Below, piece by piece: positions 8,555-14,492 of a DNA stretch of 64,000 bases (position 1 is its first letter; each line of letters starts with the position of its first letter). The notes under the pieces were generated by a model that saw only the letters and a program-made list of their open reading frames with translations, searched no databases and was not told the origin of the DNA. Source of the DNA: Debaryomyces hansenii CBS767. Its lineage: Eukaryota > Ascomycota > Pichiomycetes > Serinales > Debaryomycetaceae. The stretch covers positions 1,178,001-1,242,000 of the forward strand of contig NC_006045.2 in the NCBI RefSeq assembly GCF_000006445.2. Direction: 5' to 3'. Made by a program: the position numbers and the translations under genes.

Positions 8555-8559
8555 TATGA
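8555..8559. repeat. Target-site duplication TATGA, left copy
   Basis: The five bases immediately before the 5' LTR are TATGA, identical to the five bases after the 3' LTR at 14488-14492. A 5-bp duplication is standard for Ty1/copia integration and fixes the element ends. Confidence 0.93.
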
Positions 8560-8938
8560 TGTTGGTTTTGTGTCACTATCAGAATCTATAAAGATTCTGA
8601 AACAAATCATTGTAAGAACCATAAATAGTCATGCTAGTGATACTGATAGTCATAAGAGGATATGGGAATAATCTTAATGAGTTGAAACGAAACAAGAATA
8701 TAAATTAGGAATGAATCTCCAAGAAGAAGATGAATTTTCTAATTAACGAACAGCAATTAAGCAGAATATACTTAATTAAGACTACCCTAAAAAGTCATCG
8801 ATAGGTAGATCGATCACTTAACTACTTCTATAGTAACCAATATTGATATATAAGACCAGTATATCTATAATACTAATACATAAGTATTCTTCCCTACATA
8901 TTTCAGGTATTCACACGACCTTTATCATAATCCCAATA
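8560..8938 (+). repeat. 5' LTR, 379 bp
   Basis: It begins TGTTGG and ends CCAATA, a nearly perfect terminal inverted repeat. A perfect 7-bp hairpin (AGAATCT/AGATTCT) lies about 20 bases inside the left end. A TATATAAG box at 8847-8854 is the likely promoter TATA. The right end is set by the matching end of the 3' LTR and by the target duplication. Confidence 0.95.
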
Positions 8939-8955
8939 GATTAGAAGTCAAACTA
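8939..8955 (+). other. Primer-binding site matching a tRNA-Arg(UCU) half molecule
   Basis: The sequence directly after the 5' LTR starts GATTAGAAGTC. Its complement, GACTTCTAATC, is the anticodon stem-loop of yeast tRNA-Arg(UCU): C32, U33, anticodon UCU, two A, then the start of the 3' stem. It does not match a tRNA 3' end. The minus-strand primer is therefore likely the 5' half of tRNA-Arg cut in the anticodon stem, analogous to the initiator-Met half used by Ty5 and copia. The right limit of the site is approximate. Confidence 0.8.
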
Positions 8956-8969
8956 AGTGTTACACTTCA

Positions 8970-9980
8970 ATGTCAGAACAATTTACGTATTCTGATCCTA
9001 CTCATGTCAAACATGCAAAAACCGTTAATAACAGAGTCTATGAATCGAGTAATGAAGAAGAAATGGGGTCAAAAACCTATAAAATCCATCATTCTAAATC
9101 TTCTGATGTGATCAATAAATTTGATTCATCATCGCTATTGAAATTTAACCAAAAAGAAATTGTTGATAATGCCATTGAACAAGCAAAAGAATTGTACCAA
9201 TGTTACTTTGAGAAAATACCTTTTGTTCACGTTAATGATGTTTCAACTTTGTTATTACTCCAAAATGCGTTTAATAAATTGTTATCAAATAACAAAGGTC
9301 TTGGAAAATTATTGTTAATTAATGATCCAACGATCCAGGACTATGGAAAAGTAAAGATGTCTTCAGTATATTGTCAAAATAATAATCTCCAGATTTGGTT
9401 TCCCGTTTTTAGAGAATTATTATCTCAATCATTATTCCATAAAACACTGGCGATACAGAAATATTATCCAGAGTATGTTTTTTCTTTAAACTATACGTAT
9501 AAATATATTCGTGATAATAGAGAGGTATTTGTTAGTGAAATTTTATTAAAACTTATTAATTTCTATATTCATGCAATGGATAATCCTTTTATGGACGTAA
9601 CTGATATTTCTGCAACTGCTACTTATGGAACTGGTCAAGAAATTGATTTGGAAATAAATGATTTTATTAAAAAATTGGACCTATATCGAATAATCTTAAT
9701 TTATAAAAGACTTAAGACTAATATAAAGAACCTGGAAGCATTTATTGATGAATTAACATTTGCTTATCTTGAGTTTCCAAACAACAATAACTTGCTAAAT
9801 CTAGATCAAATTATTGTAAATTTGAAAAGAAATACAAGGTTTATTAAACCCAAATATTTTCAGGAGAAAACTGATAATTATTCAAACAGATTCGATAATA
9901 ATAAAAAGAAGCAACTGAAGAAAAATAATAAATATGAACATAGGAATCAAAATTCTTCAAAGGATAATGATGAAAATTAA
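8970..9980 (+). CDS. Retrotransposon Gag (capsid) protein
   Basis: Structural protein of the retrotransposon particle, 336 residues, starting only 31 bases after the LTR. The body is helix-rich and Asn/Lys/Leu-rich, and the last 30 residues are very basic (KKKQLKKNNK) and probably bind RNA. I see no CCHC zinc knuckle, which many copia Gags have, so nucleic-acid binding would rely on the basic tail, as in Ty1. The ORF ends with TAA at 9978-9980. The next codon (CAA) opens pol in the same frame. Reading into pol would give a Gag-Pol fusion of about 1,677 residues. Confidence 0.9.
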   Translation: MSEQFTYSDPTHVKHAKTVNNRVYESSNEEEMGSKTYKIHHSKSSDVINKFDSSSLLKFNQKEIVDNAIEQAKELYQCYFEKIPFVHVNDVSTLLLLQNAFNKLLSNNKGLGKLLLINDPTIQDYGKVKMSSVYCQNNNLQIWFPVFRELLSQSLFHKTLAIQKYYPEYVFSLNYTYKYIRDNREVFVSEILLKLINFYIHAMDNPFMDVTDISATATYGTGQEIDLEINDFIKKLDLYRIILIYKRLKTNIKNLEAFIDELTFAYLEFPNNNNLLNLDQIIVNLKRNTRFIKPKYFQEKTDNYSNRFDNNKKKQLKKNNKYEHRNQNSSKDNDEN

Positions 9981-10069
9981 CAAATTGGTAGTCACAATAC
10001 TGATATAAAATTATCTAGTTTTTCAATAAATAATATTATTTCAAGTGACCAACCAATCAATAATCAGTA
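9978..10069 (+). promoter_or_regulatory. Gag-pol recoding site: UAA stop with downstream pseudoknot
   Basis: The stop UAA (9978-9980) is followed by C, a leaky +4 base. Three bases later stem 1 starts: 9984-9989 (ATTGGT) pairs with 10052-10057 (ACCAAT), and 9991-9995 (GTCAC) pairs with 10045-10049 (GTGAC). Inside its loop, 9998-10004 (TACTGAT) pairs perfectly with 10063-10069 (ATCAGTA), which lies outside stem 1. That crossing pairing is a pseudoknot. Stem 1 has 11 bp with a small internal loop and stem 2 has 7 bp. Position and topology fit stop-codon readthrough, as reported for Tca2 of Candida albicans with UGA. Function here is inferred. Confidence 0.75.
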
Positions 10070-13000
10070 CATCTATGATAATAATAAAATAGATGATAGC
10101 AAAAATTATGTTTTCGACAGCGGAGCAAGCGTTACTGTGGTAAATGATATAAAACAATTAATAAATATAAAGGAAGATTTAGAAGATAGTGAAAGGCTAT
10201 TCTATACTGTTTCAAATGTACCAATTTATGCAAAAGCTAAGGGTGATTTAGTTATAAAAATCAAAAACTGCAAATTTACAATTAATAACGCTTATTATAT
10301 TCCAGGAATCCAACTGAATCTAATAAGTTTCAATGATTTATTGAATAAAGGTTTTCTAATATTATTTGACAACGATTATTTATTTCTTATTAAAAAATCT
10401 AATGGAAAATGTTTTAATATTGCAAAACGAGATACGAATTCTAATTTGTTTAACAATATTAGATCAAGAGATTTTTTCAGTATGAAACTATCTCGAAAAA
10501 TTATAGATGAATTAAACAATATGAATCAGAAAATTATCAACAAGAAAACATTGAATTATTTCAATAATAAGTACATTAAGATTTCTAACATGAATCATGA
10601 AATCGCAAATCCGTTTAAACGCAAACGCGATCTAATGTACTATCATCTTATGGGTAACCATATGTCTCTTGAAAGTATGAAATACTTAATTAAAAGTGGG
10701 CATATAAAAATGAGTTCTGAAATAACGGCTTCGGAAGAAGAAAGGGTTAAATCTTGTAATGAATGCTTAGCAATCAATTCAAAACAATCCTCACATAACC
10801 ATACTCATTTCACAGCACCCAGAAGGTTATTTAGATTACATTCAGATACGTTGGGAATATTTAGTCACCGAGGCAAAAAGTATTACATTACAACCTTAAT
10901 TGATGAATACTCCGGTTACTTAAATACAATATGGTCTGAACATAAATCAATTCAAGATTTATTATTTGAAAAAATAAGAATTTGGAATAATAAATTTGTA
11001 GATGCAAATGTTGCGTTCTTTCGAACTGACAATGCATTGGAGATGCCTACTAAAGATCAATTAGCAGAAATCGGTATTGAAAAAGATGAAATTGCATCTT
11101 ACAGTCCAGAATTAAATGGAATTAGTGAAAGAACTAATAGATCCATAATTCAATTTATAAGAAAAGCCCTCTTACCCATACAAGATACTAGAACTCTTTA
11201 TCTTCTACCTAAGATTGTTGACTATGTAACATACATAAGGAACATGACACCTGTTCGTTCAAAAGGAGGTCTGTGTCCGTATGCATTATTCTATGATACG
11301 AATAAGTTCCATTATAATCCTATACAATTTGGTCTAGACGTAATTGTTAAGTTAAGTTCCACAGTGGAAGCTAAAAAGTATGGAGTCAGCAACTCAAAAA
11401 CTAGTCCATGTATTTTATTTGGTACATTTATTGGTTACGGTACAGACGTACACGTTTATAAAGTTATTTTATCTACCAAAGACTTTCCAATAATAGTGAC
11501 ACCAAATATTACATTAATGAAATCAATGGATAATTTAAAAGTCTATCTAAAGAGTCTCGATTACCTTCAAGACAAAGATGCTCAAGACATCGATATTTCA
11601 CTTGGAAAACTTACAGATAGAACAGATGAAAAATTATCTATAGCAATAGAGCATATGAATCAAGATACAATTTATGAATGTAATGAGTATGATACCCAGG
11701 AAAGTCTAGTAAATTCAAACTCAACGATTCAAGACGTAGCTCAACATATATTCGAAAGAACACATGAATCAAATTCACTAGGAATGTCAAATCCAGTCCA
11801 CTCTAATTACACAATGGTGACTGATACGTCAAATGATTTTGATTATACCATAGAGGAAACTATGAACGAAGTTAATCTGAATCCATCTGATACAAATGAA
11901 ACGACAACTGATTCAAATATCACAAAAACTAATTTCAATGACTCACTGAATAGTAGTGATAATTCACAACAAAAATCGTCTACTCATCAAACGTTACCTC
12001 ATCCACTGGCCCCGGATAAAAATGATGAAATAAATAAGATAAATGAAGATGGTAATACACATTTATCATTAGAGTCGAGTACATTATCGGAAAAGACACC
12101 GACAACTCAAAATAATGTACGGGTTTCAACTAGAAGTAAAAAAGCCATTGTAGAGACGGTTGAACCCAGAGGAAAAATAACCTCAAGTAAAGATTCGAGA
12201 GTTAAAAAGGATCCACATAAAACATCTTTACGCAATTCTTCAAAATCCTCGAAGAAAATAAATGACTTACAATCGCATGCACCTAAAGTAAATAAGTCAT
12301 TAGAAACTATTCCATATACTGTCATAACTCGATCTATGTCAAGGAAACTAAACTCACAATCATCCAAATCTAATTCTTTAGTCACTCGGAAAATTAATAC
12401 TGTATATCGAAAAGTCGATTTAACAGATAACAACTGGAAGCAGTCAATACAACGCGAATTAGATACTTTTAAGAAATATGAAGTATATACGGTTGTGAAA
12501 ATTCCTAAAAATGTCAAACCTATTCCAACTACTTGGGTTCATACACATAAAATTAACGATCTCAAAGAAGTTCAGTATAAATCACGTTGCGTTGTACAGG
12601 GCTTTAGGCAAATTGCAAATGAACACTATGATACCTCGAAGGTGTCATCTCCTGTGATTGAATTATCCATAATTCGTTTACTTACAGCGATAGCAGTTGA
12701 ATATGAATGGCCGATACATCATCTTGATATATCTTCCGCATATTTACATGCAGATATCGACTATGAGAAATCCATATTTGTTAAACCACCACCTGGATCG
12801 AATATTGATTCTGGTAAATGTTGGCAATTAAACAAATCTGTTTATGGAATGAAACAAGCAGGGTATATGTGGTATCAATGTATAACTAAGGTTCTTATGG
12901 ATCTTAATTTCGAACCTGATACTGCCATTAGCGGAATGTTTTGTAAATATTTTGGTGAAAATAAGAAGCTCATCGTTGCACTATATGTGGATGATATGTT

Positions 13001-14003
13001 TTTAACTTCGTCTAATATTACAATTCTTAACGATTTCAAACTTGAACTCGCTAAACATTTCGACCTTAAATATTTCGCTGACATATCTGAATTCTTAGGA
13101 ATTGAATTCATTCAAATTGCAGGGGGGTATAGATTATCACAACACAATTTCTTGAATTCTGTAATTAAAAAATTCAATTTAACAAATAATTATGGAAAGT
13201 ATATTCCAATAATTAAAGAGAAAAATAAAATTTCCGAAACTCAACTAAAGAGTGAATTTACTAATGACGAAGTCATTAAAAATGAATCATTGCTAAATGA
13301 AGAAGATAAAAGACTATATCAATCAGGTGTTGGTTCGTTATTATGGGCAGCTAATAACACGCGGCCAGACATAAGTTTTGCTGTAAATCAATTGAGCTCA
13401 AATAATCAAAATCCGACATCAGTCGATCTTGAAAAATTGATATATTGTTTACGTTATGTAAAACAAACAATATCTTTTAGTTTAGAGTATAAGCGGAATC
13501 GATTTTCACATAAAAAGGGATCATTTATCATTCAAACTTTTTCAGATGGATCTTTTGCACCCACAAAAGATAGAAGACTGATTACAGGTTATACAGTTTA
13601 TTTAAATGGTAATCTAATAAATTGGTCTACCATAAGGCAGAAGGTTATCACTGATAGTTCTGCAGCTTGTGAAATCAATGCACTACATTCAGCTGTGAGA
13701 AGTACACTTAAATCAAGACAAGCTATATTAGATCTAAATTTAGTTATTGATGAAATTACATTATTTGAAGACAACGCCGCAGTTATAGCGAACTGTAATA
13801 ATGAAGGTACTTCATATTCAAGGCGTATGGTCGATATCAAATTAAAATTTATCAGACAGTTAGTTTCTGAAGGTATATTAAAATTAAAATATGTTAACAC
13901 AAGTATTAATATAGCAGATATGTTAACAAAGGCATTAAGCCGAAAATTATTTGAAAATCTTCGTTCACTACTATTTGAAAGAAATGATTTAAATAAAGAA
14001 TAG
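9981..14003 (+). CDS. Retrotransposon Pol polyprotein (protease, integrase, RT, RNase H), expressed by readthrough
   Basis: This ORF of 1,340 codons is open from the base after the gag stop, with no ATG needed. The aspartic protease motif DSGA is at 10116-10127. The integrase has an HHCC zinc site (His-Leu-Met-Gly-Asn-His ... CNEC) near 10640-10780 and a DD-E core: Asp in LHSDTLG, Asp in FFRTDNA, Glu in LNGISERTN. A long Ser/Asn/Thr-rich linker covers about 11600-12350. Reverse transcriptase shows LDISSAYLHA, YGMKQAGYMW and the catalytic YVDD near 12990. RNase H shows SDGSFAP, DSSAACEINAL and DNAAV. No frameshift or internal stop is present, so the enzyme set looks intact. Confidence 0.95.
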   Translation, partial: QIGSHNTDIKLSSFSINNIISSDQPINNQYIYDNNKIDDSKNYVFDSGASVTVVNDIKQLINIKEDLEDSERLFYTVSNVPIYAKAKGDLVIKIKNCKFTINNAYYIPGIQLNLISFNDLLNKGFLILFDNDYLFLIKKSNGKCFNIAKRDTNSNLFNNIRSRDFFSMKLSRKIIDELNNMNQKIINKKTLNYFNNKYIKISNMNHEIANPFKRKRDLMYYHLMGNHMSLESMKYLIKSGHIKMSSEITASEEERVKSCNECLAINSKQSSHNHTHFTAPRRLFRLHSDTLGIFSHRGKKYYITTLIDEYSGYLNTIWSEHKSIQDLLFEKIRIWNNKFVDANVAFFRTDNALEMPTKDQLAEIGIEKDEIASYSPELNGISERTNRSIIQFIRKALLPIQDTRTLYLLPKIVDYVTYIRNMTPVRSKGGLCPYALFYDTNKFHYNPIQFGLDVIVKLSSTVEAKKYGVSNSKTSPCILFGTFIGYGTDVHVYKVILSTKDFPIIVTPNITLMKSMDNLKVYLKSLDYLQDKDAQDIDISLGKLTDRTDEKLSIAIEHMNQDTIYECNEYDTQESLVNSNSTIQDVAQHIFERTHESNSLGMSNPVHSNYTMVTDTSNDFDYTIEETMNEVNLNPSDTNETTTDSNITKTNFNDSLNSSDNSQQKSSTHQTLPHPLAPDKNDEINKINEDGNTHLSLESSTLSEKTPTTQNNVRVSTRSKKAIVETVEPRGKITSSKDSRVKKDPHKTSLRNSSKSSKKINDLQSHAPKVNKSLETIPYTVITRSMSRKLNSQSSKSNSLVTRKINTVYRKVDLTDNNWKQSIQRELDTFKKYEVYTVVKIPKNVKPIPTTWVHTHKINDLKEVQYKSRCVVQGFRQIANEHYDTSKVSSPVIELSIIRLLTAIAVEYEWPIHHLDISSAYLHADIDYEKSIFVKPPPGSNIDSGKCWQLNKSVYGMKQAGYMWYQCITKVLMDLNFEPDTAISGMFCKYFGENKKLIVALYVDDMFLTSSNITILNDFKLELAKHFDLKYFADISEFLGIEFIQIAGGYRLSQHNFLNSVIKKFNLTNNYGKYIPIIKEKNKISETQLKSEFTNDEVIKNESLLNEEDKRLYQSGVGSLLWAANNTRPDISFAVNQLSSNNQNPTSVDLEKLIYCLRYVKQTISFSLEYKRNRFSHKKGSFIIQTFSDGSFAPTKDRRLITGYTVYLNGNLINWSTIRQKVITDSSAACEINALHSAVRSTLKSRQAILDLNLVIDEITLFEDNAAVIANCNNEGTSYSRRMVDIKLKFIRQLVSEGILKLKYVNTSINIADMLTKALSRKLFENLRSLLFERNDLNKE

Positions 14004-14069
14004 AATCATTTACTATATGTCAAAGAGTACCAATTGTTTTTTACCACAAAGTTAGGTTTTACAATATAA

Positions 14070-14101
14070 AGATCTTATGATTAAACTAATCTATAAGATC
14101 T
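14070..14101 (+). repeat. 9-bp inverted repeat just before the polypurine tract
   Basis: AGATCTTAT (14070-14078) is the exact reverse complement of ATAAGATCT (14093-14101), with 14 bases between. The hairpin ends directly against the polypurine tract. Its role is unknown. Confidence 0.7.
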
Positions 14102-14108
14102 AGGGGAG
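14102..14108 (+). other. Polypurine tract for plus-strand priming
   Basis: AGGGGAG directly precedes the 3' LTR, the expected place and composition for the RNase H-resistant primer of plus-strand DNA synthesis. Confidence 0.85.
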
Positions 14109-14487
14109 TGTTGGTTTTGTGTCACTATCAGAATCTATAAAGATTCTGAAACAAATCATTGTAAGAACCATAAATAGTCATGCTAGTGATACTGATAGTC
14201 ATAAGAGGATATGGGAATAATCTTAATGAGTTGAAACGAAACAAGAATATAAATTAGGAATGAATCTCCAAGAAGAAGATGAATTTTCTAATTAACGAAC
14301 AGCAATTAAGCAGAATATACTTAATTAAGACTACCCTAAAAAGTCATCGATAGGTAGATCGATCACTTAACTACTTCTATAGTAACCAATATTGATATAT
14401 AAGACCAGTATATCTATAATACTAATACATAAGTATTCTTCCCTACATATTTCAGGTATTCACACGACCTTTATCATAATCCCAATA
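14109..14487 (+). repeat. 3' LTR, 379 bp
   Basis: Same length and, by reading both through, the same sequence as the 5' LTR. Its TATATAAG box at 14396-14403 points toward PNC1, whose ATG is 146 bases further on, so transcripts started in this LTR would run into PNC1. Confidence 0.95.
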
Positions 14488-14492
14488 TATGA
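14488..14492. repeat. Target-site duplication TATGA, right copy
   Basis: Matches the left copy at 8555-8559 exactly and lies immediately after the CCAATA end of the 3' LTR. Confidence 0.93.

Follow-up and report, generated by a model that had tools for sequence, protein, structure and literature searches.

In a complete Ty1/copia retrotransposon of the yeast Debaryomyces hansenii CBS767, gag and pol share a reading frame and are separated by a UAA stop codon that is followed at once by CAA and then by sequences able to pair as a pseudoknot. The recoding site at this junction is real and well placed, and it is probably functional, by a mechanism that is proposed here. The most likely reading, which we hold with moderate confidence, is programmed readthrough of UAA through a combined signal of CAA and RNA structure. 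The CAA, absent from the initial annotation of this DNA, is as relevant as the knot. The sequence compared was a window of 64,000 nucleotides inside the 12.18-Mb host genome (eight contigs); unless a contig is named, positions are those of the window.

A Ty1/copia element with UAA between gag and pol

The element is 5928 bp long, with LTRs of 379 bp, and is flanked on both sides by the target duplication TATGA (8555-8559 and 14488-14492). Its primer site complements the region around the anticodon of tRNA-Arg(UCU), and nine of the ten genomic places with the 13-nt primer-site pattern were tRNA-Arg(UCU) genes. Tca2 of Candida albicans is presumably also primed from inside this tRNA. A purine-rich tract, AGGGGAG, stands immediately upstream of the 3' LTR. 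Pfam comparison of pol matched RVT_2 (E 6.9e-124, residues 833-1079) and Pol_BBD (residues 44-125), and gave 21.5 bits for gag_pre-integrs (residues 198-263), under the 28.4 cut-off. An rve integrase domain was not matched in the element's pol by Pfam; one 38% relative had a weak rve match. With a copia-type reverse transcriptase, integrase-side domains ahead of it, LTRs, duplication, primer site and purine tract, the element is a Ty1/copia LTR retrotransposon.

Table 1 Features of the element and of its gag-pol junction, in window coordinates.
Feature	Position	Strand	Basis
Complete Ty1/copia element	8560-14487	+	LTR and flank comparison; Pfam RVT_2 and Pol_BBD in pol
5' LTR	8560-8938	+	379 matching bases, identical to 3' LTR
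Primer binding site	8939-8953	+	15-nt match to host tRNA gene
gag, 336 codons, UAA end	8970-9980	+	ORF; relatives P0001, P0002
UAA stop separating gag from pol	9978-9980	+	read directly
pol frame	9981-14003	+	ORF, in frame with gag
CAA triplet immediately 3' of stop	9981-9983	+	read directly
Stem 1, 5' strand (6 bp + A9990 + 5 bp)	9984-9995	+	pairs verified
Stem 2, 5' strand (7 bp)	9998-10004	+	pairs verified
Predicted AU-rich hairpin in loop, 10005-10017 with 10027-10039	10005-10039	+	adjoins stem 2
Stem 1, 3' strand	10045-10057	+	pairs verified
Stem 2, 3' strand	10063-10069	+	pairs verified
3' LTR	14109-14487	+	LTR comparison

At the junction, gag ends in AAU UAA and pol opens with CAA AUU; CAA makes up 2.6% of the pol codons. 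As initially annotated, gag and pol share a frame that only the UAA interrupts, and pol has no early ATG. The first in-frame ATG lies at 10482, downstream of the protease motif DSGA at 10116, and the first pol-frame GTG at 10137. None of ATG, CTG, GTG, TTG and ACG occurs in the pol frame between the stop and DSGA.

Three full copies are present in the host genome (C2:326808, C3:1069071 and C3:1186560), each with its own 5-bp duplication (TATGA, TTTTG or ATTCC). All have the UAA, and the 601-bp junction region is identical among them, so that these copies show no covariation. Over the whole element they differ at eight sites, all in pol, and with the CTG-Ser code six of these changes are synonymous. 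Under random change, at least six synonymous among seven transitions would have a P of about 0.006 (pooled 0.012). Seven of the eight variable sites are common to two copies, and thus represent few events. Because a usable start codon is lacking, the three young copies all keep UAA and the changes in pol are mostly synonymous, Pol must, judging from the sequences, be made past the UAA. The initial annotation had stated that Pol needs readthrough; the need to pass the stop holds, whereas readthrough would be the probable route.

The family LTR was detected at 15 genomic places at least, six of which belong to the full copies. Nine more LTR matches (loci L001 and L008-L015; 77-100% identity, one partial), at which no gag was detected, would be solo LTRs or older remnants of this family. 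Another copia family accounts for 17 of the 20 pol matches in the genome, at 24-29% identity. It was read at three places: one holds an uninterrupted gag-pol frame of 1496 aa, and the frame is broken up at two. Since this family has a single gag-pol frame at one of the three places, a stop after gag is not a host habit. The family (loci L019-L035, contigs C1-C7) occupies one short region per contig, e.g. 942-965 kb on C7 and 978-992 kb on C3, with a single match on C1; these clusters may mark centromeres.

Predicted RNA structure behind the stop

An 11-bp stem three bases past the stop had been noted initially, as had a 7-bp pairing of its loop with sequence further downstream. All of these pairs are present. 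Stem 1 is built of 6 bp (9984-9989 with 10052-10057) and 5 bp (9991-9995 with 10045-10049) around a small internal loop, in which A9990 faces 10050-10051. It begins 3 nt after the stop, and its upper half after 10 nt. The seven pairs of stem 2 are all Watson-Crick and cross stem 1.

For each point, H-type knots with a stem 1 beginning no more than 12 nt away were scored by the summed stacking of their stems. The junction scored -25.5, a value attained in none of 1000 dinucleotide shuffles, none of 1000 synonymous resamplings (pol codon usage) and two of 1500 native windows matched for GC; when GC was not matched, 26 of 1500 random positions in the window reached it. Among in-frame gag and pol positions it was reached at four of 1641, all at the junction. 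On the plus strand of the element, 12 of 5818 start positions reached it, all neighbours within the junction site, and on the minus strand none of 5818. The lead of the junction is small, since the runners-up scored -24.8 (at 9297) and -24.2 (in both LTRs). The telling point is that the top-scoring site falls at the stop. The stretch with the second-best score, 9297-9400, lies inside gag.

Taken alone, stem 1 was matched in 15 of 3000 dinucleotide shuffles and at 57 of 5818 element positions, corresponding to this site and four others. With stem 1 fixed, the energy of stem 2 was matched in 78 of 3000 shuffles, or in four of 3000 if both short connecting loops were also required. A bare 7-bp helix between loop and downstream sequence appeared in 870 of 2000 mononucleotide shuffles with Watson-Crick pairs only, and in 1337 of 2000 with G-U pairs allowed. 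Stem 2 alone is therefore modest, and the weaker evidence. Nested folding of the junction gave a z of -0.66, a stability that 41 of 200 shuffles equalled or exceeded. With assumed penalties between 7 and 9.6, crude estimates put the knot at -11.0 to -13.6 kcal/mol; the nested hairpin lies at -13.6, and these energies do not tell the two apart. For the pseudoknot described initially, the pairings are real, exceed chance and yield the highest knot score found in the element; the actual formation of stem 2 is a prediction.

These results also bear on the possibility that UAA-CAA alone causes readthrough, in the style of tobacco mosaic virus, and that the knot is incidental or has another use, e.g. 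in RNA packaging. CAA does lie directly past the stop, CAA-containing hexanucleotides gave robust readthrough in the yeast reporters described in PMC4446449, stem 2 is modest by itself and the nested fold is unremarkable. However, when CAA AUU is compared with the CARYYA motif, CAA agrees with the CAR part and AUU departs from YYA, and the top knot score of the element sits at the stop. We regard this explanation as rather unlikely.

Relatives and other possible routes past the stop

Two Gag relatives were found among 1631 candidates, P0001 (79%) and P0002 (88%). P0002 has its C-terminus at the same residue as the Gag of the element, as would be expected if the stop position is shared. In P0001 the end lies in a different frame; its tail, back-translated in the shifted frame, agrees at 17 of the last 18 positions (9974-9991) and at only 18 of 24 over all those tested, a mere hint that the stop-CAA-stem string may be kept. 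Pol relatives were found for 19 of 7995 scored candidates, one of which, P0003, is this element. Two unnamed ones, P0004 (38%) and P0005 (34%), are frames with pol alone, 1399 and 1415 aa long; no Tca2-labelled sequence was in the pol comparison. Their predicted starts lie upstream of the protease motif, where P0004 also has an internal Met, and their first residue may represent GTG or TTG. Given the Gag end of P0002 and the pol-only P0004 and P0005, gag and pol seem to have long been separate frames in this lineage.

A third protein search gave three of 4315 candidates, close but partial. P0001, P0002, P0023 and P0024 stem from metagenome assemblies. At the DNA level there were no relatives among 14 and 114 pattern matches in viral contigs or 69 in genome contigs, and none among phages. 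Three plasmid records (H1, H2 and H3), considered as relatives for covariation, were too distant to use (~26% identity to P0004). These small records, under the names Streptomyces, Kitasatospora and Candidatus Protofrankia, contain copia-like reverse transcriptase sequences, which are perhaps eukaryotic contamination.

Splicing of a 546-nt in-frame stretch (9473-10018) would remove the stop and leave a shortened Gag fused to Pol. Splice candidates were enumerated with our own motif lists, and this one has a GTATGT donor at 9473, a branch-like TACTGAT at 9998, a TAG ending at 10018 and a length divisible by three. However, a comparably loose branch and acceptor follow within 800 nt at 17 of the 41 GTATGT sites of the window (both strands), the branch motif is two bases off TACTAAC, and the product would lack half of Gag. 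The stretch looks no better than chance, and we consider splicing highly unlikely. Its branch-like TACTGAT coincides with the 5' strand of stem 2, base for base.

Even less likely is a separate start of Pol at the junction, whether from an internal promoter, by internal ribosome entry or at a non-AUG codon. The Tca2 junction was weakly promoter-active, and an AUG in the loop of its knot was used in reporters, where it was a confounder (PMC2194720). In the same report, however, Tca2 Pol in C. albicans tracked the LTR promoter and not the junction promoter (PMC2194720), and here the five common start codons are absent before the protease, rarer near-cognates such as ATT being outside the codons checked.

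The UAA might instead be a mutation that inactivated one parent, which intact elements elsewhere then copied in trans, and the near-identity of the copies means that a single mutated parent could have been copied. Against this, the host genome yielded no copy with gag and pol fused: gag matched only the three full-copy places, and pol closely matches only those too, so no fused helper copy or further gag was found. The common end residue of P0002 and the synonymous bias in pol also speak against it, and we rank it below a separate start, as very improbable. Ribosome hopping, in which the peptidyl-tRNA slides past the stop to a later matching codon, is the least likely of all: PMC5009743 mentions in-frame stop hopping as something that could account for certain cases taken as readthrough, but according to the same source no natural occurrence is known.

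Proposed readthrough at UAA and comparison with other systems

In programmed readthrough at this junction, most ribosomes would terminate at UAA and release Gag. A minority would accept a near-cognate tRNA at the stop and continue into Pol, yielding a small share of Gag-Pol. Two local aids would act, the CAA just past the stop and the structure downstream. When UAA occupies the A site, the ribosomal mRNA channel would hold the lower part of stem 1, whose 6 bp would be too near the ribosome to remain paired. The ribosome would then meet the upper 5 bp of stem 1, topped by the 7-bp stem 2, from 10 nt past the stop, not far from the 8 nt that separate stop and knot in murine leukaemia virus (MuLV). 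In this scheme we infer that readthrough occurs and at what level, that CAA and the structure contribute to it, and that the knot forms.

Data from Saccharomyces cerevisiae suggest that the near-cognate tRNA would be a tyrosine or glutamine tRNA. Yeast UAA is reported to be best read by these two, though supplying more glutamine tRNA(UUG) made no marked difference in that paper's own assay (PMC6614816). In an S. cerevisiae survey, C at +4, A at +5 and A at +6 were each in the most permissive class, and UAA-C attained the overall median; UAA, U at -1 and U at +9 were least permissive (PMC8087045). The junction also has this U at -1 and U at +9. CARYYA is described as able to act on UAA (PMC3542737).

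Tca2 (pCal), a Ty1/copia element of C. albicans, likewise has gag and pol in one frame, with a single stop and a possible knot behind it, as proposed by Forbes et al. 2007 (PMC2194720). Its stop is UGA rather than UAA. The Tca2 spacer is purine-rich and 8 nt long, whereas here CAA directly precedes stem 1 (from 9984). Tca2 has 280-bp LTRs and a length of 6426 bp (PMC7175516), compared with 379 and 5928 bp here. In S. cerevisiae, 300 nt of the Tca2 junction gave ~0.3% readthrough, equal to background (PMC2194720). The initial annotation had cited Tca2 as a reported case of readthrough, which this background-level result makes too strong; the part of the precedent that holds is the proposed knot. 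By analogy, the Tca2 result would count against readthrough in our element. Forbes et al. 2007 suggested remote sequences or a Candida factor (PMC2194720), and the way in which Tca2-like elements pass the gag stop, open in 2007 (PMC2194720), was described as still undetermined in 2020 (PMC7175516). It is conceivable, though doubtful, that a hybrid signal of CAA and a three-stem pseudoknot, its lower stem opened by the ribosome, works only with the ribosomes or under the conditions of CTG-clade yeasts. If true, this would explain the failure of the Tca2 junction in S. cerevisiae.

The gag-pol signal of MuLV, a gammaretrovirus, likewise combines an in-frame stop with an H-type knot whose first loop is short. 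It has UAG, an 8-nt spacer, a 1-nt loop 1 and an 18-nt loop 3 (PMC4178896), in contrast to UAA, a 3-nt spacer to stem 1 and a long loop with its own hairpin here. With UAA in place of UAG, MuLV readthrough persisted at a reduced level (one of a mutant pair with a 1.7- to 3.1-fold decrease; PMC4178896). The type I (CARYYA) motif of tobamoviruses and the yeast BSC4 and PDE2 contexts share the CAA right behind the stop; most natural type I cases use UAG (PMC3542737), whereas our junction has UAA, and AUU for YYA. Among the LTR elements of fission yeasts, Tj1 and Tosmo/Tcry also have gag and pol separated by an in-frame stop (PMC10085805). In Tj1, Pol lacks an AUG, as here, and the gag stop is required for transposition (PMC4600332). 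Unlike our element, these belong to the Ty3/gypsy group, and their stop is TGA after GAA and before CT.

The junction follows the gag-stop-pol strategy in a variant form, with UAA, CAA and structure together. In the open-licence literature, we found no natural retroelement with a type I-like context and structure on UAA; a 2002 survey of yeast LTR elements may already describe this element. If readthrough occurs, this would be a natural retroelement that joins both on UAA. The element is also a cleaner test than Tca2, with the least permissive stop, five common start codons absent before the protease, CAA behind the stop and three young copies.
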